A DNA stretch of 64,000 nucleotides from Microvenator marinus (GTDB lineage: Bacteria > Myxococcota_A > Bradymonadia > Bradymonadales > Bradymonadaceae): NCBI RefSeq assembly GCF_007993755.1, contig NZ_CP042467.1, forward strand, positions 5,170,001 through 5,234,000, written 5' to 3'. Each line of letters opens with the position of its first letter. The stretch's first letter is position 1. The position numbers and the translations under genes were made by a program. This document shows, one piece after another, positions 1-12,386 of the stretch. The notes beneath the pieces are model-generated. The model worked only from the letters and a program-made list of their open reading frames with translations, was not told where the DNA came from and searched no databases.

Positions 1-1928
1 TCTTGAGTGGCTCTGCTCCCGATCAGAAAAATCCCCGTTTGAGGCGCGCGGACAAGTCCACGATTCACTAACTCCGTCGAAGCCTTCATCACCCGATCGC
101 TCGGAAGTCCCGTCAACAGCGTAAGATCAGAAGGTGTTAGGGTTACGGCGGCAATGGCGAGCATCGCCAGAACTTGAGACTCGTCTGGCGTGAAATCCAC
201 GTGATCGCTCAGGTCTGCTTCAGCTTCGCCTGAAACCCGCAGGGCCTCGAGGTTCTCAGGATGCCCAAGATTAAACGCGGCACGCATCGCCCCGGCATTC
301 TGTGTGAACATCACCAGCATCAACGACCGCGTGCCGATATCTTCAACCAGATGTCTAAGGGCGTTCAACGAAACCGAGTCCACCTCTTCCAGTCTATCGA
401 TCACCACAACCAGCGGGCCGGTTTCCGTGGCATCCGAAACCACGCGCTCTACGATCTCGAGCAAATGAGCCGACTTTTCTACAGGGCTGCTCTGGCTGAT
501 TCGTCCGATCACACGAACCGAAAGATACGTCTCGATCGCCTCTTCACTAATGCCCATGTCGCGCAAGGCGAGCTCTACATTGCGCTCACCTTCCACGCCG
601 AGCAGGGTCGCCACCATGTCGCCCATCAGCCCGAACGGAACAAACCGGTCGTCCTGTGAAATCTGAGCAGAGAACGAGAGCGTATTTCCACGCCACGCCA
701 CACCCTCTTGAAGGATATCGGCCAAGAACTCTCGGCCTCGGCCAAAATCACCGTCCACCAAAACCGCTTTACCACGGCCTCCGCGAACGCTGAGGAAAAT
801 CTCCTCGAGAGCGCCAGGTAGTGCCGGTCGGCTCGGGCCACCCATGGCCTCCATAATCTTATGTGACGGGATCTCCGCGTTCGTTCGGTCGGCAGCCTCG
901 GAATCTGGATTCAGTGCCTTGATCTCGCTCAGGCTGATCTCTGGAATCCCGAATTCCATCGTCGATTCGCTCGGCTCAATCTTTTGCTCGTGCCGCTTTA
1001 ACTCTCGGATATAAAGAGAGAGCGCCCGCGCATCCGCCCTCAAATTATTGCCGAAGATAAACGCCGCCATGTCCTCATAGGCTTGGTTCGCCGTCTCCAC
1101 TCGCCCGGCAGGGTCCGGCGTCAAGAGCATTTCCAGCAGCTGCGCAATCGGTCTTGGAACGTCCACAACGGATTGAATCGATGGCACATCCGCCTCTTCA
1201 GCTTTACGCCTTGCGCTCTCGAGGTTCGCGGCATCGTACGGATGATGCCCGGCGAGCATCTCCCAGAGCAAAAGACCAAGCGAGTAGAGGTCCGCACGCT
1301 GAGAGCGCGGCGCGCCCTTCAAAACCTCGGGCGCCGCATATTTTATGCGCATCAGCCCGTCGTCGTCGTCCAAGACAGGGATGAACTCAAACGCCCGCGC
1401 CAACCCAAAATCCGTAACTTTGACTTCGCCTTCAAAAGACAACATCACGTTTCTGGGAGAGAGGTCCCCGTGGACCAGATTTAGGCTGTTGAAATTGTAG
1501 TCTTTTCGGCGATGAGCGTAGTCTAGACCCTTGGCAATCTCACTCGCGATATACATGGCTATTTCATAGGGCAGGGGCCTCACCACGCGACTCAACTCGA
1601 GCGTTCGCCGCAGATCAAAACCTCCCACGAACTCTTGCGCTACGTAGTACTGGCCGCTCGCCTCTTCGAGCCCAAGGTCAAAAACCTGAGCAACATTGGC
1701 GTGAGACAAAGTCACCGTGCGTTTGGCCTCTTCGATCACCGCCTCAACAAACGAGGGGTTCTGGGTCAGCGCTTGATTGAGCACTTTGACCACAAAAATC
1801 TTTTCGAAACCCTCAACCCCGTGGCTCTTACCCTTGTACACATCGCCCATACGGCCATGCGCCAGGCGCGCCACAAGCTCGTACTTTCCAAACGACATCG
1901 GTTGCGCAAGCCGCTCTGTTCTACCCAT
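1..1928 (-). CDS. Ser/Thr protein kinase fused to an ATPase-like module (partial, C-terminus beyond the window)
   Basis: An open reading frame runs from ATG at 1928 off the left edge (642 codons seen). The N-terminal part is a eukaryote-like protein kinase: glycine-rich loop around residues 22-31, the VVK lysine at K48, catalytic loop HGDLSPRN at 153-160, and DFG with D173. The usual HRD is HGD, so it is a non-RD kinase. After about residue 280 a second region resembles a STAND/AAA ATPase module, with a P-loop-like stretch GDFGRGRE (393-400) and a Walker-B-like VVVIDRLEEVD, but the P-loop lacks the Lys-Ser/Thr pair. No membrane segment is seen in the visible part, so it is probably a cytoplasmic signalling protein. 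It is divergent from the methyltransferase at 2010, with about 80 bp between. Substrate unknown. Confidence 0.85.
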   Translation of the reverse strand, partial: MGRTERLAQPMSFGKYELVARLAHGRMGDVYKGKSHGVEGFEKIFVVKVLNQALTQNPSFVEAVIEEAKRTVTLSHANVAQVFDLGLEEASGQYYVAQEFVGGFDLRRTLELSRVVRPLPYEIAMYIASEIAKGLDYAHRRKDYNFNSLNLVHGDLSPRNVMLSFEGEVKVTDFGLARAFEFIPVLDDDDGLMRIKYAAPEVLKGAPRSQRADLYSLGLLLWEMLAGHHPYDAANLESARRKAEEADVPSIQSVVDVPRPIAQLLEMLLTPDPAGRVETANQAYEDMAAFIFGNNLRADARALSLYIRELKRHEQKIEPSESTMEFGIPEISLSEIKALNPDSEAADRTNAEIPSHKIMEAMGGPSRPALPGALEEIFLSVRGGRGKAVLVDGDFGRGREFLADILQEGVAWRGNTLSFSAQISQDDRFVPFGLMGDMVATLLGVEGERNVELALRDMGISEEAIETYLSVRVIGRISQSSPVEKSAHLLEIVERVVSDATETGPLVVVIDRLEEVDSVSLNALRHLVEDIGTRSLMLVMFTQNAGAMRAAFNLGHPENLEALRVSGEAEADLSDHVDFTPDESQVLAMLAIAAVTLTPSDLTLLTGLPSDRVMKASTELVNRGLVRAPQTGIFLIGSRATQ

Positions 1929-2009
1929 CAAATGCCTCATCACTCTTGTCAGCAACGCAACTCTACCGCACACTCCGCCATCCAAACACTGAAAGATTCA
2001 GGAATGCCG

Positions 2010-2717
2010 ATGGATAACGAAACATATTACGACGAATTTGCAGAATGGTACGAAAAGGAACGCCATGATGGCTACCATGCCTTCATCGACAGGCTGGAAA
2101 CCAATCTGATTCTCCCGCACGCAGCCGAGAAAGATGTTCTCGAAGTAGGTTGCGGGACAGGCCTCATCCTCCAGCGCGTGGCCGCCGTGGCTCGCAGGGC
2201 TGTGGGTATGGACCTCTCTGCTGGAATGCTTGAGCACGCCGAAAAGCGTGGGCTAGAAGTGGTCAAGGCCGATGCCACTGACCTTCCGTTTGACGATGAA
2301 TCTTTTGACCTCGTCTACAGCTTCAAGGTGCTCGCACACGTCAAGGATATCGATAAGTCGCTGGCAGAAATGGCGCGTGTGACGCGTCCAGGTGGACGAC
2401 TTATCCTCGAGTTCTACAATCGACTTAGCCTGCGCTATCTAGCCAAAAGGCTCGCTGGGCCCGGAAAGATCTCGCAAAATACCGACGAGGGGGCAGTCTT
2501 TACGCGCTGGGATTCACCTTCGGACCTGATTGCTCGTCTGCCATCGAACCTCAAACTCGTTGAGCGTTACGGCGTTCGCGTGCTCACACCCGCGGCCAAG
2601 CTTCATCGGATTCCGCTCATTGCGCCGGTTCTCCAGCACGCCGAAACCAAAGCAGCACACAACGGTGTACTCAAGCACTTCGGCGGCTTCTTGGTCCTCG
2701 AACTCCAGAAGACTTGA
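2010..2717 (+). CDS. class I SAM-dependent methyltransferase
   Basis: A 235-residue protein with a Rossmann-type methyltransferase fold. It has motif I VLEVGCGTG, the acidic end of strand 2 (VGMDLS), motif II DATDLPFDDESFDLV, and the post-motif RPGGRLILEFYN. It should transfer a methyl group from S-adenosylmethionine; the acceptor cannot be told. I chose the ATG at 2010 because AGGA at 2000-2003 is well spaced from it, while the ATG at 2004 directly abuts AGGA. The frame stays open upstream to 1635, but that stretch is antisense to the kinase coding region and is not protein-like. It may be a ubiquinone/menaquinone-type or small-molecule methyltransferase. Confidence 0.85.
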   Translation: MDNETYYDEFAEWYEKERHDGYHAFIDRLETNLILPHAAEKDVLEVGCGTGLILQRVAAVARRAVGMDLSAGMLEHAEKRGLEVVKADATDLPFDDESFDLVYSFKVLAHVKDIDKSLAEMARVTRPGGRLILEFYNRLSLRYLAKRLAGPGKISQNTDEGAVFTRWDSPSDLIARLPSNLKLVERYGVRVLTPAAKLHRIPLIAPVLQHAETKAAHNGVLKHFGGFLVLELQKT

Positions 2718-2793: not shown

Positions 2794-5559
2794 ATGTCCA
2801 ACGCCGAACTCCAAATCTTTGATGCCGCGGGAAACCTTGATTTAGCAAGGTTTTCTAAGCAGGCAGTTGAACTTCTGGAGGCCGCGAAGGCGATGGTCGT
2901 CGAGATGAAACGCTCCATGTTCTTGCCGCTCGATCTCATGATCGTGCTCATTGAACACGGCGCGCACGAACTCGCCGAGTCGGTTGCTGACGGTACCGAC
3001 GGCAACGTCTTGCCCGAAGAAGTCGCGCCAAGGCTTCGAGCCCTCGCCAAAGAGATCGAGGACGAGTCCTCAGAGCATCCTGTGCAATTCGAACAGACCT
3101 CCTTTTCCCGAGGCTTCTCGAGGATTTTGGAGGAAGCGTTTGAGCGTGCGAGGCTCCGAAACAAGAAGACCGTAGACGTTGAAGATATTGCCCGTGTGGT
3201 CCTGATGCGCGCCGAGGCGACCGAGTCCGCATCGGTGCGTTGGGCCATCCGCAGGCTAGGGGAGGGCGGTGGCGACTTCCTCTTCGACCAGCGTGGCATG
3301 TTGCGAAAGGAAGTATTTCACGACTCCGCGTGGACCATGCTTCAAGGGTCCATGAAACTCGCAGCTGAGCACGGAACACCATTCCTTGGAACGCCTCACT
3401 GGGTAGCCATGGTCTGTTCGGTTCGGGGCTCTACGATTTGGCGCAGCGCAAACGCAAGAGGCCTGGAGCCGAGCCGTCTGCGCGAGGAATTGCTCCGCCT
3501 GATCGGCACCAAACCACAGGCCATTCCCGAGTTCTTGATCGGGCGCAAAACCCTGACACCTCGAATGGTCAGAATGCTCTCAAATGCTTTGCGAAAAGCT
3601 GATGGTGAGGAGGTTCTGGAGCCACATCTCGTCGAGGCTTTCCTGGAAGACGGCGGCTCTAGCCTCGAGCTCATCCAGGCGCTTGGCCTCGAGTCCGAGA
3701 TTCGACGCGCTCTTGGGGACCCTAGAGTTCTAGAAGAAGCCGTGGCTATCGAGGCGGCCATCCAACTCGGCGCCCGTCGTCATTCGACTCCCACCCTGGA
3801 TATGTTGGGTAGAGACCTCACGGCAGAAGCCCTCGAAGGTAAACTCCCGGAGATCGTGGGCCGCGAAAACGAACTACAGCGCGTGGTCAATATTCTGCTC
3901 CGAAAGGAGCAAAGGAACCCTCTCCTCACCGGTGAGGCCGGCGTCGGTAAAACCGCCCTCGCGGTGGCGCTCGCACAGCGCATCGTAAGCGGGCGAGTAC
4001 CCAAAAAACTGAAGGGTCACCGGCTGGTGGAGATCAACGGCGCTTCTCTCATGAGCGGCACCTCCTATCGGGGTGACCTTGAATCCCGAATCAAGGGACT
4101 TTTGGAAGAGGCGTCGCAGAACGTCATCCTTTTCATCGACGAGGCACATGCCGTATTTGCGCCGCGCGCAGGCTCACACGCACCCGCCGAGGTTCCGAAT
4201 CACTTCAAGAGTGCACTCGCCTCTGGGAGCATCGCCGTTGTCGGCGCCACCACCGAGGCCGAATACAGGCGATGGTTCGAACAAGACCCGGCACTAAAGC
4301 GCCGCTTCGAAAGAATCGAAGTCCCCGAGCCAAACGACGCGCTCGTGCGCTCGATTCTCGCGTCCCTTGTGGACGAGCTCGAAAAGGACTACGAAGTTAA
4401 GGTCGAAGACGAAGCCGTCGCCGCCGCCATTGAACTCTCGGTAAAATACCTTCCCGAACAACGCCTCCCCGACAAAGCAAAGAAGCTCTTGATGGACGCG
4501 TGTATCGCGCGCGCCAACACACTTGTTGAAGTTGAAGACGAAGACATCTCAGTCACCAGAGCCGACGTGGCCGTTCAAGTCTTTCTCAAGACGGGAATCC
4601 CCAAGGAACGTCTGCTAAAAGGCGAACTTTCATGGTGGGATGGCTTTGAAAATCGACTCAAAAACACAGTGGTCGGACAAGAGGCCGCTGTTCAATCGAT
4701 CGCCCGCGCATTGGTCACAGGCCGCCTCAAACGCGCACGAAACAAGCGCCCCATGGCGGTTCTTGTCTTTGTGGGACCACCCGGTGTTGGAAAAGGAACG
4801 CTCGCAAGAGCGCTTGCGGAAGAGATCTTCAACGACCAGCGCGCGCTTTTGCGCCTTGATATGACAGACTTTCAAGAGTCACACGCCATGAGCCGACTCG
4901 TTGGCTCTCCACCTGGGTATGTCGGTTACGAAGACGAAGACATGTTCGTGACACCGCTTCGTCGCCGACCGAGCAGGGTCGTTCTCCTCGAGGACTTCGA
5001 CCGGGCACATCCGAGGATTCAAGACCGGATCTTGAGAGTCATGGAAGAGGGCGAGATCGCCGATACACGTGGCTCGGTCGCAGATGCGTCCAACGCCATC
5101 TTCATCCTCACCGTCAATACCACGACCACCCGCTCGAACCATCGAATCGGTTTCGGCGAGGAAGAAGGTGGTCTCAATGGTACTTCGGTACTCGACGGCC
5201 ACGACAAAGCTTTCGCGCTGAAAATCAAAGATTATGTCGATGCAGTCATCGGGTTTAACGCGCTCGATTCGTCGGATGCACATGTTGACGAGCTCGTTCA
5301 ACGTAGGCTCGAACTCTTCCAGAGTGCGATGCAGGAAGAGTACCTGATTGAAGTTGCATTCACCGATGCACTAAGAGCTTTCCTTCTTCAAAGCGCCGCA
5401 AAACTAAACGACGCCAAATCGGTCACGAACCTCGTCGAAGATTCCCTCTTCGGACCCGTGACCGATGCACTTTTGCACGGCAATTGCGGCACTCGGGTGC
5501 TGATCGATATCGAACCCGAGTCCAATTCCGTCATCGTCTCCAAAGACAGTTCAGGTTGA
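2794..5559 (+). CDS. ClpA/ClpB-type AAA+ unfoldase with a degenerate second ATPase module
   Basis: 921 residues in the Hsp100 layout: Clp N-terminal region, AAA1, AAA2 and C-terminal region. AAA1 is intact, with Walker A GEAGVGKT at 380-387, Walker B IDE (D449, E450) and an aromatic pore loop (GTSYRGDLE). AAA2 keeps the fold landmarks, including the GYVG pore loop, but the Walker A is GPPGVGKG (661-668; Thr/Ser after Lys replaced by Gly) and the Walker B reads LLED (E733, D734) instead of LLDE. The arginine-finger NRLD and sensor-2 GAR motifs are not recognisable. An IGF tripeptide follows AAA2, as in the ClpP-binding loops of ClpA/X/C. No type VI secretion genes are nearby, so ClpV is unlikely. 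Probably handles protein unfolding, with the second ring mainly structural (inference). Confidence 0.85.
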   Translation: MSNAELQIFDAAGNLDLARFSKQAVELLEAAKAMVVEMKRSMFLPLDLMIVLIEHGAHELAESVADGTDGNVLPEEVAPRLRALAKEIEDESSEHPVQFEQTSFSRGFSRILEEAFERARLRNKKTVDVEDIARVVLMRAEATESASVRWAIRRLGEGGGDFLFDQRGMLRKEVFHDSAWTMLQGSMKLAAEHGTPFLGTPHWVAMVCSVRGSTIWRSANARGLEPSRLREELLRLIGTKPQAIPEFLIGRKTLTPRMVRMLSNALRKADGEEVLEPHLVEAFLEDGGSSLELIQALGLESEIRRALGDPRVLEEAVAIEAAIQLGARRHSTPTLDMLGRDLTAEALEGKLPEIVGRENELQRVVNILLRKEQRNPLLTGEAGVGKTALAVALAQRIVSGRVPKKLKGHRLVEINGASLMSGTSYRGDLESRIKGLLEEASQNVILFIDEAHAVFAPRAGSHAPAEVPNHFKSALASGSIAVVGATTEAEYRRWFEQDPALKRRFERIEVPEPNDALVRSILASLVDELEKDYEVKVEDEAVAAAIELSVKYLPEQRLPDKAKKLLMDACIARANTLVEVEDEDISVTRADVAVQVFLKTGIPKERLLKGELSWWDGFENRLKNTVVGQEAAVQSIARALVTGRLKRARNKRPMAVLVFVGPPGVGKGTLARALAEEIFNDQRALLRLDMTDFQESHAMSRLVGSPPGYVGYEDEDMFVTPLRRRPSRVVLLEDFDRAHPRIQDRILRVMEEGEIADTRGSVADASNAIFILTVNTTTTRSNHRIGFGEEEGGLNGTSVLDGHDKAFALKIKDYVDAVIGFNALDSSDAHVDELVQRRLELFQSAMQEEYLIEVAFTDALRAFLLQSAAKLNDAKSVTNLVEDSLFGPVTDALLHGNCGTRVLIDIEPESNSVIVSKDSSG

Positions 5560-5620
5560 TTCTGAATAGGCTTTGCTGTACTCACTGCCACCCATAAACA
5601 CGACTCACCAGAGGACCCGT

Positions 5621-5893
5621 ATGAAGGTACATGCTTGGGAATTTATGAATGCCACCGCCTCCTTGAAAAACCCCAATAAGGTTAACTTTCTCGAGGAGAG
5701 AGTCGAAGAGGGCAAGAAGGGCAAGAACACACGCCTCTACAGAGACGTCGACCTCGACATCATTGGCACACACGGCTGGGAGATGGTCGCAGTGGTACTT
5801 GTTCCCGGTGAAGAAGGCCCCAGATTGCAGTATTTTTTCAAGCGGCCGTCGAAGAACGAAACTTCGACCATCTACGAAGCGGCAGACAACTAA
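5621..5893 (+). CDS. small DUF4177-like protein
   Basis: A 90-residue cytoplasmic protein starting at ATG 5621, preceded by GAGGA at 5611-5615. The core GTHGWEMVAVVLVPG followed by a short tail with YFFKRP resembles the DUF4177 family, small alpha/beta proteins with a conserved G-W-E-[LM]-V-[AS]-V segment and a terminal FKRP-like strand. Their function is unknown. The frame stays open to 5573, but only the 5621 start has a ribosome-binding site. It lies 61 bp after the Clp-like gene in the same direction and may be cotranscribed with it. Confidence 0.65.
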   Translation: MKVHAWEFMNATASLKNPNKVNFLEERVEEGKKGKNTRLYRDVDLDIIGTHGWEMVAVVLVPGEEGPRLQYFFKRPSKNETSTIYEAADN

Positions 5894-6179: not shown

Positions 6180-7154
6180 TCAATGAGGCTGAAATTCACC
6201 GTTCAGACCATAAAGATTATCGTATCGAATCCCGGATGACAAGGACTCTCTTAGTGATGCTTGAGGTTCGCTAACTTCGGGTGAGGTCGGAGCCGTGCCC
6301 GGGATATAAGGCACACGATACATGCCTTCCCATTGGTTCCATCGATAGACCTCCGGAGCGCCAGAATCGTCAGCTGCATCACGAACCAACACGAACCGAT
6401 GACGCTGCCCACGCGTAAACTCCACGCCCTTCAGAGCCTTCCAGGTCTCTCCGCTTTTCTCAGCGAGCCTCTCGCGAAACACGATAGCCACGAACTCGTC
6501 GATCACTTTCATGACCTGAACTTCGAGAACCTCGACCTCGCCTTCGATTCTCACTCCGTAGATCACGACTTCGAGTAGCCCGTCTCGTACCAACTCACTC
6601 GCAACGACCGGTACCTCAATGCCCAGGGCTTTAACTTGTGGATGGGTAGGGTCCAAATCGCTCTTAGTCTGCGCGATTCGACGCTTGGTCGAATACACGT
6701 CAAAAGCCTTGCCCGGTGAAAACACGAAGAGTTCATTTCCCTCTTCGTGATCAAAATCCCCCTCGAGCACCCATGTCTTTTCGAGATCACCCCGAATTAC
6801 GAAGTCCTTTCGAGCAGCCTTGGCCTTTTCCGCATCTTCAATCGGAATACCGCGCAGCTCCAACAAATGCGGCTCAAGGGCATCCGCCGAGGTCTCGGTC
6901 GACTCCGTTTGGATCTCGGCGGCCTCGGGCTCAGAAGCTGGTGCGTCCTTTCGCTCTTCGGCGTAGCGCGCCTCGCCCTCCATCTCGGGATAACTACCCG
7001 ATTCGTCCATCTCTTGAGGGGGCTCCGACGCTGCATGCGCATGCGACGGGTGCGAGCAATCACATACCCAAGGCTTCAGCCAACCTTTGACGGTGCTGCA
7101 CCCGGCCAATGTTAGAGTTGTGATAAGGATTAAGAGGCGAAGTTGAACCGTCAT
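6180..7154 (-). CDS. exported lipoprotein of unknown function
   Basis: 324 residues. The N-terminus is a lipoprotein signal peptide with lipobox LAGC (Cys19), so it should be anchored in the envelope. A disordered acidic Glu/Ser/Ala-rich stretch follows (about residues 40-95). The mature domain then has several beta-rich segments (WVLEGDFDHEEGNELFVF, RHRFVLVRD, PEVYRWNQWEG) without a match I recognise. It is 12 bp downstream of the RlpA-like gene and read in the same direction, so the two probably form a cell-wall or envelope operon. Confidence 0.7.
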   Translation of the reverse strand: MTVQLRLLILITTLTLAGCSTVKGWLKPWVCDCSHPSHAHAASEPPQEMDESGSYPEMEGEARYAEERKDAPASEPEAAEIQTESTETSADALEPHLLELRGIPIEDAEKAKAARKDFVIRGDLEKTWVLEGDFDHEEGNELFVFSPGKAFDVYSTKRRIAQTKSDLDPTHPQVKALGIEVPVVASELVRDGLLEVVIYGVRIEGEVEVLEVQVMKVIDEFVAIVFRERLAEKSGETWKALKGVEFTRGQRHRFVLVRDAADDSGAPEVYRWNQWEGMYRVPYIPGTAPTSPEVSEPQASLRESLSSGIRYDNLYGLNGEFQPH

Positions 7155-7166
7155 ACTGCTTTGCGA

Positions 7167-7658
7167 TCAATGGTACTTGCGTTCGATGGCGGCTACATTG
7201 ACCGGAGTTGAGCCTTTTGACCAGTATCTAAGCTCAACATTCGCCAAGCCCCGGTCGATTGTCCCAAGCTCGTTCGCTGTCGCGATCGACATATCAATGA
7301 TGCCCCGCCAATGTGCGCCAGGCTCCAACGTAGTGGTGGCAGCCCACGTACCGTCGGCTAAACGCATACCGTAGGGGCCGCGGTCATTGATTCGGCACCA
7401 AACACGACGTCGAGTGGCCTTATTGACGATCAGAACTACTGTATCAAATGCGAGGCCGCGGTGCGCACACGTGAACTTTTGAGGATTAAAGGCCTCCCCA
7501 TTCGCCGTCACGCTACCGTGCATCGAGCCGTCCCCGTACCAAGATGCCAGCCCAATCTCTTGAACGGGCGGAAGGTCGAGGCTCGGTATTTCAATGGGTT
7601 CGGCGGTTTGATAATGCGAGTACATTGCCGCCATCACCACGAGTTTCGCTAAGGTCAT
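7167..7658 (-). CDS. RlpA-like double-psi beta-barrel protein
   Basis: 163 residues. The core GLASWYGDGSMHGSVTANGE, then FTCAHRGLAFDTVVLIVN and WCRINDRGPYG, is the RlpA-type double-psi beta-barrel. In RlpA this domain is a lytic transglycosylase acting on denuded peptidoglycan. The SPOR domain of full RlpA is absent. The N-terminus has only a weak hydrophobic stretch (LAKLVVMAAM) that may be a signal peptide. The start at 7658 is supported by AGGAAG just upstream. It leads a two-gene operon with the lipoprotein at 6180-7154. Confidence 0.75.
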   Translation of the reverse strand: MTLAKLVVMAAMYSHYQTAEPIEIPSLDLPPVQEIGLASWYGDGSMHGSVTANGEAFNPQKFTCAHRGLAFDTVVLIVNKATRRRVWCRINDRGPYGMRLADGTWAATTTLEPGAHWRGIIDMSIATANELGTIDRGLANVELRYWSKGSTPVNVAAIERKYH

Positions 7659-8237: not shown

Positions 8238-11200
8238 ATGATTAAGAATTGGAAATGGGCTTTTGGAATGGCCGCCATCTCCGCGCTTTTGGGCACCAGC
8301 TGTGCACAAGACGTCGGCGATATCGACCGTACCAACCCAGATGCCCTCGAAAAATCAACTTTCGAAGGCAATGATGAATGGTATTTCCGACAAACCGTGG
8401 TGGACACTGACTTCCAAGGCTCACTTGGTATGTTCAATGCCCTCGAGTCGAACCTCAAACGGGTTCGCTGGGTCATCACCGAAGATACACTTTACGCGAT
8501 GTCCACCGTCGAGCCTGCTGAAGGACTCACCGACGGCTTCCAAGATGACGACGAGTTGCGCGTAGGTGTGGTCGCTGCGTTCCCCATCACTTCGCACTTT
8601 GACGTCCAACGTGCGTACTCCTCATCGACCGGTGAACAGTCCAACGTGATCCAGGAAAACTCCTCGGACCGTAACTGGTACGAGCGAAAGTACATGCGCG
8701 TCGACTGGTCCAGGAACCTCGCTGACGGAATGCAAATGTTCCAGAGTCAGCTAGGTGGCATGTCTGCAGCAGCTGTCGCGATTCCTCAAGAGGACGGCTA
8801 TATCGATCCCAATCGTACGCGGATTTCAGAGAACTACATCGACACCGTAACCGCGTATTTTTACGAACCAGATATCTACGCTTGCTATTACGCATTCGGA
8901 TATGACTCGATCTTCAACTGTGAAGGTGGAGAAGTTAAGGTTCGTAACTCCTTCCTCAAGCGCGACCCCGTCGAGAAGTACGAGCCGCTACAGTACTTGG
9001 ATGAGGAGTACCTTACCGAAGATTCTGGACGTAGAATTTCGACGGTCGAGTTCTATGATCCAGCACTCGACTCGTTTGTGCCCGTTGAGTGTGATCAAGA
9101 AGTGCTTGACTATCTGCGCGACGAGAATGGATGGACAGTTACCGACGCGTGTACACCCGCCTCCTTCGAGATGTTCTCCAGATTCGGCTACTTCCGGACC
9201 GAGCGCGTGGTGTGGGACGAGGAATACGGTTCAAACTATGAATCGTCTCGACGTTACTATGCAAATCGCTGGAATATCTGGGAAACCGCTTATAACGAAG
9301 ACGGCTCTGTCAAGCCCCTCAACGAGCGTGACCCAAAGCCGATTATCTACCACCTCAACGTAGAGTACCCACAGGACTTCGAAGCCGAAGCCCAGGAAGT
9401 GGCTCGTCAGTGGGATGACGCGTTCAAAGAAGCCGTCATGGTCGCTAAGGGTATCTCCAGGGATGAACTAGAGGCTGACTTACAGGCGCGTTACGGGCAT
9501 CCTCACATGTACCGCATCGTGAACAACAGCTGCTCTGGTCCTGAGCTTGCCGCTTGGCATGCTGCAAATCCTGGCGTTGAGGCAGAGCTCTTCGCCCAGC
9601 TTGGTGCGGACATCGACTCTAGCTTCCGAGCTCTCTCGCACAACAAGAAGCACGCGTTCTGTGCTCAGCTTGAGTACAACACCGAGGGAACGGCTCACGC
9701 TTGGGACTACCAACGCGTTGGTGACCTTCGATACAGCTTCTTCAACTGGGTTGAACAGGAAGTACCTTGGCTCGGCTATGGTCCTTCCGCAAACGATCCA
9801 AAAACGGGTGAGCTGATCAGCGGTAACGCAAACTTCAACGGAACCATTATCCGCACCTACGGACCGTTGGCCGCTGACTATGTGCAGTACATCAATGGTG
9901 AGCTCGATGACTCTACCGTGGCAATCGGCGAGCACATCCGCGAAGAACTCCAAGAACGAAGTCGTCAAACTCGTGAGCAAGAGCTGAATCCCGATGGTGT
10001 TCGAGAGCTGGCGCATCGCACAGGTGCTCCCTCGGCTGCTTTCGACTACGATCCTTCAAGTTCTTTCAACTTCAATGATATTCCGGACAGCCTGAAGCGT
10101 TTTACGCCAGACAAACTCAAAAGCTTGACCGCAAACGCAGCCCGGCAGATGAGCAATGTTCGAGCGTCAGACACACGTCTTGCGGAATTCTATGACCAGC
10201 CGGAGATTCGTCACTTCATGATGAGTGATCCAATGTTCGAGGCTTTGGTTCGGTCCAAGACCGCTGCTGAAAATGGACCCGGCTACGATGAAGAAGATAT
10301 CCGTCGTTCATACGTAAACGTGGCAGCTCCTCGCCAGGCATACGACCAATATCAAAGACGTAGCGCCTACATGGCTCAGCGAAACATCTTTTCGCTCGAG
10401 TACATGGAAGACATGATGTCGAAGCTCGTCACCTACACAGGGGTCGCAGACCGTTTCCGTGGAAAATCACGCGACGAGATCGGAGACTTCTTCGTCAAGC
10501 GGATGTTTGTTGGCACGCAGCTACACGAGGTCGGACACACCGTCGGACTACGACACAACTTCATCGCCTCGATGGACGTGTTGAACTATCACGACACCTA
10601 TTGGCACATCCAAAAGGCCATTGCGGATGGAATTGTCAGCGAAAACCAACGCTGGAACATCCCAGAAGATTTGGTCGCACAAATCGACGGTGTCGATGTC
10701 TCAAACCTGGGTGACAAGGGTGTAGACATTGGCTACCTCAGTGAGGCTGAATTCAGAATCGCATCTGTCATGGATTATACTGCTGACTTTACCGGTCGCT
10801 TCGCTGGTCTTGGAAAATACGACCAAGCAGCCATCAACTTTGCGTATGGCGAAGCTGTCGAGACCTTCGCAGAAGATGTCGAGCTCAGCGGGATCATCGA
10901 TTGGGACTTGATGTTGAGCGACTATCGTGAACTGCCGCGTATCTTCGGCGGCGGGGAACAAGGCATGGGAACCCCAGACGAACAACGTAGGGGTATTGAT
11001 ATCATTCTCAACAAACGAACATACAAGCCAATCAAGCTTGCTATGGAAGAGAAGAAGCAAGGGCTAAAGTCAAATCTCAACAACTGGAAAAACGGTCAAC
11101 TCGGTCCAGCAAATCGGCCATGGGTAGACAAAGCCGTGCCTTACGAATTCTGTTCAGATGCCTGGAATGGGGCCTCCCTTGGCTGTCAGGTATTCGATTA

Positions 11201-12386
11201 CGGTGCAAATCAGAGAGAAATCGTAAATCATCAGTTCAATACTTACCGCCAGTTCCAAACATTCCGTCGATACCACCGGGGCCGAATCAATCGGCTCGGC
11301 GAGAACGTCAACGGGTACTTCAACTGGGTATATGGTATGGCAGAGATGAGCCACAACCCATTCCGATACTACTCCTTCTACCAGTGGTACAACCTCGGCT
11401 CATACACCGACGACTTGAGAGAAGCTTCGATCGATACGCTCAATTTCTTTGGCGAGATCATGGCTACTCCACAACCAGAACGATTCTGCCGGCAGCAACA
11501 CTATCTTTCCGCAAACTGGTTTGGAGATCTGTCCAACGTGTACGTGCCCACTTCTTTGAACCAGGACGACGGTCGTTGTGCAAACTACATCGACGTACCA
11601 AGAGGCTTAGGTCAAGGATATGGATATGAGTACACTCCCGACGAAGACCAACGGGTAACCCGCGTGGGGACATTCATCGATAAGTACGTTGCCTCGATTG
11701 CAATGTTTGAAATCAGCGCGAATTTCGCCCAAAGCGCGTTCATCACCGACTTCCGCGCGACCAACATCTCGTATTGGACGCTATTCCAAGACGAGCTCTA
11801 CAACTTCTTGAGAGGTGTGTTGGTGGATGATTTCAACGGATTCGCAGGCGTCTACAACCCAGTGACAGCTTCCTACGAGCCACCCATGATCGTGGACAAA
11901 GAAGTGTTTGGTAAAGGTGTGGATAGTCATCAAGCGAGTATGACCCGGGTCTACACCCCCATGTCCATCACGCACAGATTCAATCTTTTGGTAGGTGCAA
12001 TGATGTACAACAACTCATGGGAAGACAGCCGTCCAGACTTCGGTCAGTTCGCGAAAGTCTGCGTGAGCTTCAACGAATGCCAAGAATATGCTCCTGGAAC
12101 CCAGATCGAAGAGTTTATTCATCCGGTGACGAACCAGATCTATCGTGCTCCACGGACATCTGATGGCCGATCTCTGACGGCTGAATTGATTGTGAATGCT
12201 AACGCCGCCAAGGCTGAGTATCTCACCGCTAAGGGCAATTTGGATGCTGCGGTACCGAACACCTCTGACTACCAAAACAAGAGAAGGGTGATGTTGCGGC
12301 TAGCAGAGCGAATGGAAGAGATGGTCTCGAGGCTCGATATGATTCGATTTGTTTGGGACGCAATGGGGCCGAACGCTCTTAGGTAG
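8238..12386 (+). CDS. very large zinc-dependent metalloprotease lipoprotein
   Basis: 1382 residues, starting at ATG 8238 after AGGAGG. A lipoprotein signal ends at Cys22 (LLGTSC). The gluzincin/metzincin-type motif HEVGHTVGLRHN spans 763-774, giving the HExxHxxGxxH ligands His763, His767 and His773 with catalytic Glu764. The surroundings resemble the DUF5117/DUF4953 zinc-metalloprotease families, whose members are usually shorter. The long N-terminal half (about 1-650) is rich in Tyr, Asp and Glu and has no fold I can name. A downstream SVMDY fits the Met-turn of metzincins. It should act outside the cytoplasm as a protein-degrading enzyme, consistent with a predatory or scavenging lifestyle (inference). 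It stands alone, with its own long leader and terminator. Confidence 0.85.
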   Translation: MIKNWKWAFGMAAISALLGTSCAQDVGDIDRTNPDALEKSTFEGNDEWYFRQTVVDTDFQGSLGMFNALESNLKRVRWVITEDTLYAMSTVEPAEGLTDGFQDDDELRVGVVAAFPITSHFDVQRAYSSSTGEQSNVIQENSSDRNWYERKYMRVDWSRNLADGMQMFQSQLGGMSAAAVAIPQEDGYIDPNRTRISENYIDTVTAYFYEPDIYACYYAFGYDSIFNCEGGEVKVRNSFLKRDPVEKYEPLQYLDEEYLTEDSGRRISTVEFYDPALDSFVPVECDQEVLDYLRDENGWTVTDACTPASFEMFSRFGYFRTERVVWDEEYGSNYESSRRYYANRWNIWETAYNEDGSVKPLNERDPKPIIYHLNVEYPQDFEAEAQEVARQWDDAFKEAVMVAKGISRDELEADLQARYGHPHMYRIVNNSCSGPELAAWHAANPGVEAELFAQLGADIDSSFRALSHNKKHAFCAQLEYNTEGTAHAWDYQRVGDLRYSFFNWVEQEVPWLGYGPSANDPKTGELISGNANFNGTIIRTYGPLAADYVQYINGELDDSTVAIGEHIREELQERSRQTREQELNPDGVRELAHRTGAPSAAFDYDPSSSFNFNDIPDSLKRFTPDKLKSLTANAARQMSNVRASDTRLAEFYDQPEIRHFMMSDPMFEALVRSKTAAENGPGYDEEDIRRSYVNVAAPRQAYDQYQRRSAYMAQRNIFSLEYMEDMMSKLVTYTGVADRFRGKSRDEIGDFFVKRMFVGTQLHEVGHTVGLRHNFIASMDVLNYHDTYWHIQKAIADGIVSENQRWNIPEDLVAQIDGVDVSNLGDKGVDIGYLSEAEFRIASVMDYTADFTGRFAGLGKYDQAAINFAYGEAVETFAEDVELSGIIDWDLMLSDYRELPRIFGGGEQGMGTPDEQRRGIDIILNKRTYKPIKLAMEEKKQGLKSNLNNWKNGQLGPANRPWVDKAVPYEFCSDAWNGASLGCQVFDYGANQREIVNHQFNTYRQFQTFRRYHRGRINRLGENVNGYFNWVYGMAEMSHNPFRYYSFYQWYNLGSYTDDLREASIDTLNFFGEIMATPQPERFCRQQHYLSANWFGDLSNVYVPTSLNQDDGRCANYIDVPRGLGQGYGYEYTPDEDQRVTRVGTFIDKYVASIAMFEISANFAQSAFITDFRATNISYWTLFQDELYNFLRGVLVDDFNGFAGVYNPVTASYEPPMIVDKEVFGKGVDSHQASMTRVYTPMSITHRFNLLVGAMMYNNSWEDSRPDFGQFAKVCVSFNECQEYAPGTQIEEFIHPVTNQIYRAPRTSDGRSLTAELIVNANAAKAEYLTAKGNLDAAVPNTSDYQNKRRVMLRLAERMEEMVSRLDMIRFVWDAMGPNALR

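Follow-up and report, generated by a model that had tools for sequence, protein, structure and literature searches.

The gene at positions 2794 to 5559 (+ strand) of the window, the whole 64,000-nucleotide stretch of Microvenator marinus DNA that was analyzed, encodes a two-ring Hsp100/Clp protein with a ClpA/ClpC-type core and no middle domain. Its first ATPase module (AAA1) is complete. Its second (AAA2) has a degenerate catalytic site. Judged from its sequence, AAA2 is a maintained pseudo-ATPase and not a product of decay, kept for something besides standard catalysis. We consider it fairly likely that AAA1 is the sole motor and that AAA2 is a passive, probably ATP-binding, substrate-gripping ring that may dock ClpP. 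The gene and its features are as follows.

2794..5559, + strand, Hsp100/Clp-like unfoldase coding sequence, 921 amino acids (open reading frame; Pfam, NCBIfam, and PDB-sequence matches; orthologues 44-69% identical)
2815..3273, + strand, N1 domain, residues 8-160, probable first Clp N-domain, starts FDAAGNL (helix order and spacing as in N2 in the model)
3280..3729, + strand, N2 domain, residues 163-312, Clp N-domain, starts FDQRGML (fold and profile match)
3790..4608, + strand, AAA1 module, residues 333-605, catalytically complete
3931..3954, + strand, AAA1 Walker A GEAGVGKT (K386 and T387 in 25/25 orthologues)
4057..4074, + strand, AAA1 pore loop GTSYRG (Y425 in 25/25)
4132..4149, + strand, AAA1 Walker B FIDEAH (D449 and E450 in 25/25)
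4294..4314, + strand, AAA1 arginine finger LKRRFER (R503 and R504 in 25/25)
4645..5508, + strand, AAA2 module, residues 618-905, catalytic site degenerate, fold kept
4774..4800, + strand, AAA2 Walker A GPPGVGKGT, K667 kept and T/S replaced by G668 (K in 25/25, T/S in 12/25, T669 in 16/25)
4915..4929, + strand, AAA2 pore loop GYVGY, residues 708-712, invariant (YVG in 25/25)
4990..4995, + strand, AAA2 Walker B (VVLLED), acidic pair swapped from D-E to E733-D734 (D at 733 in 5/25, E at 734 in 1/25)
5116..5118, + strand, AAA2 sensor-1 N775, kept here (only 6/25 orthologues)
5146..5154, + strand, IGF tripeptide, residues 785-787, at the ClpP-docking-loop position (G and F in 25/25, I in 24/25)
5233..5235, + strand, AAA2 arginine-finger position, NRLD replaced by DYVD, R by Y814 (R in 5/25 orthologues and 16/16 controls)
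5416..5418, + strand, AAA2 sensor-2 position, GAR replaced by DAK, R by K875 (R in 15/25 orthologues and 16/16 controls)

The protein matched the Pfam families AAA (residues 377 to 508) and AAA_2 (residues 652 to 783), which is the module order of a classic-clade AAA1 and an HCLR-clade AAA2. The Pfam search gave no Clp_N match. The top-ranking NCBIfam models were ClpA, ClpV, and ClpB, all far under their cutoffs. The scores were 441 bits for ClpA (TIGR02639; curated cutoff, 993), 437 bits for ClpV (TIGR03345; cutoff, 885), and 433 bits for ClpB (TIGR03346; cutoff, 1,232). The nearest PDB sequences were ClpC, ClpB, and ClpA. The AlphaFold2 model was of moderate confidence (mean pLDDT, 77; pTM, 0.45), with pLDDT below 50 in the AAA2 pore loop and the IGF loop. 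Its predicted AAA1-AAA2 core matched ClpA of ClpAP with a Z score of 33.6 (5.0 Å over 537 residues), and in a structure search its AAA2 matched the C-terminal AAA+ domain of ClpB with a Z score of ~25. The secondary structure of the model contained no long inserted coiled coil of the kind that an M-domain would form at residues 516 to 605 in the AAA1 small domain.

The N-terminal 312 residues were also modeled alone, with a pLDDT of 89. N2 matched the ClpB N-domain (VIA-align Z score, 16.2; 2.8 Å over 128 residues) and ClpC N-domains (Z score, 15). Its sequence profile matched ClpC N-domains at an E value of 1e-6. N1 has the helix order of N2 at an offset of ~150 residues, and the FDxxGxL start is common to both. 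The profile match between N1 and N2 was weak, and N1 matched the Hsp104 N-domain at an E value of 0.69. N1 is probably a second Clp N-domain, giving tandem N-domains; this assignment comes from the helix order in the model, as the structure search was dominated by N2.

AAA1 is fully canonical (GEAGVGKT, FIDEAH, RRF, and LPDKA), as the initial annotation had stated for its Walker motifs. Ten of its positions are invariant in all 25 orthologues, among them the Walker A K/T, the Walker B D/E, sensor 1, two arginine fingers, the pore tyrosine, and the PDKA lysine.

The region from 4774 to 5440 encodes residues 661 to 882. It was aligned with ClpC (PDB sequences), 16 ordinary Hsp100s, and eight paralogues from the same genome, and the changes lie in unambiguous, nearly ungapped columns. 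The initial annotation had described an AAA2 with a Walker A ending in GKG, a swapped Walker B pair, no NRLD or GAR phrase, and a remaining GYVG pore loop and IGF tripeptide. The alignment bears out each of these. Seven catalytic residues were scored (Walker A K and T/S, Walker B D and E, sensor-1 N, the arginine finger, and sensor-2 R), and the window protein contains 2/7. The eight other Hsp100 genes of the genome all encode a catalytically complete AAA2, so the degeneration is specific to the gene at 2794 to 5559. Displacement of the catalytic residues, also considered in the initial annotation, was ruled out by the alignment for Walker A and B. The arginine finger has a possible displaced substitute, a K or R that precedes the lost R by two residues in 16/25 orthologues. 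Ordinary ClpA-type proteins also carry an R at this place.

GKGT is the normal, working P-loop of adenylate kinases. GKGT alone does not disable the AAA2 Walker A. AAA2 probably still binds nucleotide, because this P-loop is normal in adenylate kinases, T669 is present in 16/25 orthologues, and K667 is invariant. We infer that AAA2 is inert, and it may hydrolyze ATP slowly.

The gene is present in 28 genomes, all from three families (f1, f2, and f4) of the class Bradymonadia of the Myxococcota. The named carriers include Lujinxingia vulgaris, Lujinxingiaceae, and Bradymonadaceae. Bradymonadia are known for predation (PMC7460792, PMC11509652). The gene is absent from four other families of the class and from one well-assembled close relative (G003). 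No orthologue was found outside the class among 282 genomes of the phylum at an E value of 1e-150. The sole other genome-contig match was an Oscillochloris protein with 36% identity and an intact AAA2; the scan outside the phylum used patterns typical of the protein's own family, which distant kin could escape. In a tree built from AAA1 only, the 25 orthologues formed one clade apart from the 16 ordinary Hsp100s, with support of 100/100.

The AAA2 catalytic residues were counted in these 25 orthologues, with the 16 ordinary Hsp100s as controls. The controls contained each of the seven residues in 16/16 sequences. AAA2 was degenerate in 25/25 orthologues (at most 4/7 residues, with at least 3 missing) versus 0/16 controls, a difference that is not chance. 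The orthologues are related, some nearly identical, and the counts are not independent events. No orthologue had an intact AAA2, the best of the 25 having 4/7 residues. The initial annotation had read the protein as one active and one inert ring. This reading is supported, and both refuting conditions set in that annotation failed to refute it. The exact changes that it described are not fixed across the family; the constant feature is a loss of at least 3/7 residues. GKG is present in 6/25 orthologues and the E-D swap in 15/25, and one orthologue alone (L044) keeps D-E. D734 is present in 22/25. The minimum number of changes on the tree was 4 for T/S, 4 for Walker B D, 2 for Walker B E, 7 for sensor-1 N, 3 for the arginine finger, and 5 for sensor 2. 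The Walker B E was probably lost early, because few changes are needed on the tree, and the other residues probably eroded or flickered in individual lineages. The arginine finger was possibly also lost early.

The dN/dS ratio between close relatives was 0.03 to 0.08 for the AAA2 large domain, 0.04 to 0.12 for AAA1, and up to 0.2 for the AAA2 small domain. The large domain of AAA2 is thus under purifying selection as strong as that on AAA1, which argues that AAA2 is maintained. A local mutation or pseudogene was ruled out by the presence of the gene in 28 genomes, the open frames, and the low dN/dS.

No conserved operon partner was found class-wide among the carriers. Family f1 has a conserved neighborhood with a Ser/Thr kinase, a methyltransferase that precedes the Hsp100 gene, the Hsp100 gene, a lipoprotein-like ORF, a DPBB/RlpA-like protein, and a 1,382-amino-acid met-zincin-domain protein. 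The window ORFs listed for it are 3-1748 (-), 1863-2717 (+), 6180-7658 (-), and 8238-12386 (+). A small ORF (5573-5893, +) lies immediately after the Hsp100 gene, has relatives in a few f1 genomes, and belongs to no Pfam family. In family f2, a related membrane protein of ~420 amino acids closely follows the orthologue (L045:2777-4051, L046:8357-9592, L047:6079-7356, and L048:9981-11225). It contains a rhomboid domain in L047. In 3/4 of these loci, the gene before the orthologue encodes a large protein that matched no Pfam family. A search of a defense-system library with the Hsp100 protein gave generic AAA matches only.

Four Hsp100 paralogues have the mirror-image pattern (L134:1449-4826, L130:1326-4625, L129:1586-4135, and L131:1648-3954; at ~1.96, 3.39, and 1.66 Mb of the protein's own genome). 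In these four, AAA1 no longer has Walker B or the arginine finger. Their AAA2 is catalytically intact and keeps GF, without a GYVG pore loop. Two of them (1,126 and 1,100 amino acids) are adjacent, behind a sigma-54 response regulator. The pattern was also seen in nine sequences from related genomes.

The protein resembles ClpA and ClpC in its N-domain, AAA1, AAA2, pore loops in both rings, and IGF/IGL/VGF loop, and these gave its best sequence and fold matches. It differs from them in its degenerate AAA2 and probable extra N-domain, since both of their AAA modules are complete. ClpI of the Actinomycetota (PMC10149685) is likewise a phylogenetically distinct, extra two-ring Clp class in one group with an altered N-terminal region. 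In ClpI, however, the ATPase modules are intact, an M-domain is present, and LGF is missing from some members, whereas the protein described here has no M-domain and its IGF motif has GF in 25/25 orthologues. The plant SMXL/SMAX1/D53 proteins are atypical and Hsp100 derived, with Clp N-domains (PMC9133912), and SMAX1 matched in both sequence and N-domain fold. They are signaling regulators with an M-domain and an EAR motif. NSF/Sec18 and Pex1/Pex6 also have an inactive ring. NSF/Sec18 is from another family, a classic AAA protein for eukaryotic SNAREs with no ClpP loop. Pex1/Pex6 has tandem N-domains, as the protein described here probably does, and shares degenerate Walker motifs, which in Pex1/Pex6 bind ATP without hydrolyzing it (PMC10518020), but it is a hetero-hexamer and its inert ring is D1, not D2.

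In the mechanism that we propose, AAA1, whose ATPase is complete and whose pore-loop tyrosine is conserved, would be the only motor. AAA2 would fold, assemble as a ring of the predicted hexamer, and probably bind nucleotide through its invariant Walker A lysine, and it would turn over no ATP at a useful rate. This passive ring would hold the threaded chain by its GYVG loop and present its IGF loop to ClpP. AAA1 would then drive the substrate through the lower ring to the protease; without ClpP, the result would be chaperone action. The two N-domains on top would probably select substrates. A machine driven by AAA1 has a precedent in Chlamydia ClpC, in which an E-to-A change in NBD2 left ~70% of the ATPase and unaltered chaperone activity (PMC10128030). 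An inert ring has precedents in the D2 of NSF/Sec18, which is catalytically inactive, stays ATP bound, and holds the hexamer together (PMC12440825), and in the D1 of Pex6, whose degenerate Walker A allows ATP binding but no hydrolysis (PMC10518020). Other findings count against our reading. The D2 ring of Escherichia coli ClpA is the principal motor and D1 is auxiliary (PMC9663308), and NBD2 of Bacillus subtilis ClpC gives ~85% of the ATPase, as cited in PMC10128030. An unfoldase driven by AAA1 only would therefore be weak on stable substrates. D734 might serve as a slow base. No gene partner is common to all carriers.

The loop at residues 785 to 787 is of the IGF/IGL/LGF type, and a recognizable ClpP is encoded in all but one of the carrier genomes tested. 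The protein's own genome contains two full-length ClpP genes (G000:C1, 2280351-2280896 and 2536600-2537142). Most f1 genomes contain two, and one or none was found in f4 carriers. AAA2 may dock ClpP, a suggestion that comes only from the GF of the IGF loop, present in every orthologue. This motif does not prove docking, because it is also kept in the four paralogues whose AAA2 has no pore loop. The same observation favors a ClpP-independent remodeler or scaffold, in which AAA1 would act on a dedicated partner brought by the N-domains, AAA2 would hold the hexamer as in NSF, and IGF would be structural or a relic. The N-terminal half, longer than that of ClpA or ClpC and probably with tandem N-domains, would suit such a role, and NSF likewise has one active and one inert ring, with its YVG pore loop in the active ring. 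In the protein described here, however, it is the passive ring whose aromatic pore loop is invariant, a feature of no use to a mere collar, and this ring also has a ClpP-type loop whose IGF is invariant within a stretch (residues ~776 to 800) otherwise variable in length and sequence. We regard the scaffold as rather unlikely.

An atypical yet active AAA2, perhaps slow and acting as a timer or ratchet with a GKGT or GKAT P-loop, swapped acids, and a displaced K/R, is unlikely. It would fit K667, T669, D734, and sensor-2 R (25/25, 16/25, 22/25, and 15/25), the K/R upstream of the lost finger, and the one member with D-E. A conserved alternative site should be uniform, however, and different lineages lost different residues: the Walker B pairs of family f4 include K-D, Q-S, and D-G, and 19/25 orthologues have no sensor-1 N. 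The protein could instead be a regulatory, partly inactive subunit that joins an ordinary Clp ATPase of its cell in hetero-hexamers. The eight other Hsp100s, which include an ordinary ClpA and a ClpC-like protein, would offer partners, and Pex1/Pex6 is a known AAA+ hetero-hexamer. Identity to the nearest paralogues is only ~33%, and neighboring subunits could not supply the missing cis residues, which makes this very improbable.

The preferred reading remains an AAA1 motor with a passive AAA2. A literature search found no description of a bacterial Hsp100 family whose second module is naturally degenerate. Hsp100 side classes are already known (ClpI and SMXL), and a class-wide bacterial Hsp100 with a degenerate second module appears new within the literature searched. 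We suggest tentatively that it forms a bacterial Clp protease whose ClpP-side ring is a permanently non-hydrolyzing gripping adaptor, with all force from AAA1, fixed across three families of one class. With D2 catalysis discarded and the pore and protease loops kept, grip and docking would be separated from force generation without mutagenesis. The family directly poses the question of whether a Clp protease can work on D1 alone, between a ClpA led by D2 and a Chlamydia ClpC dominated by its first domain.
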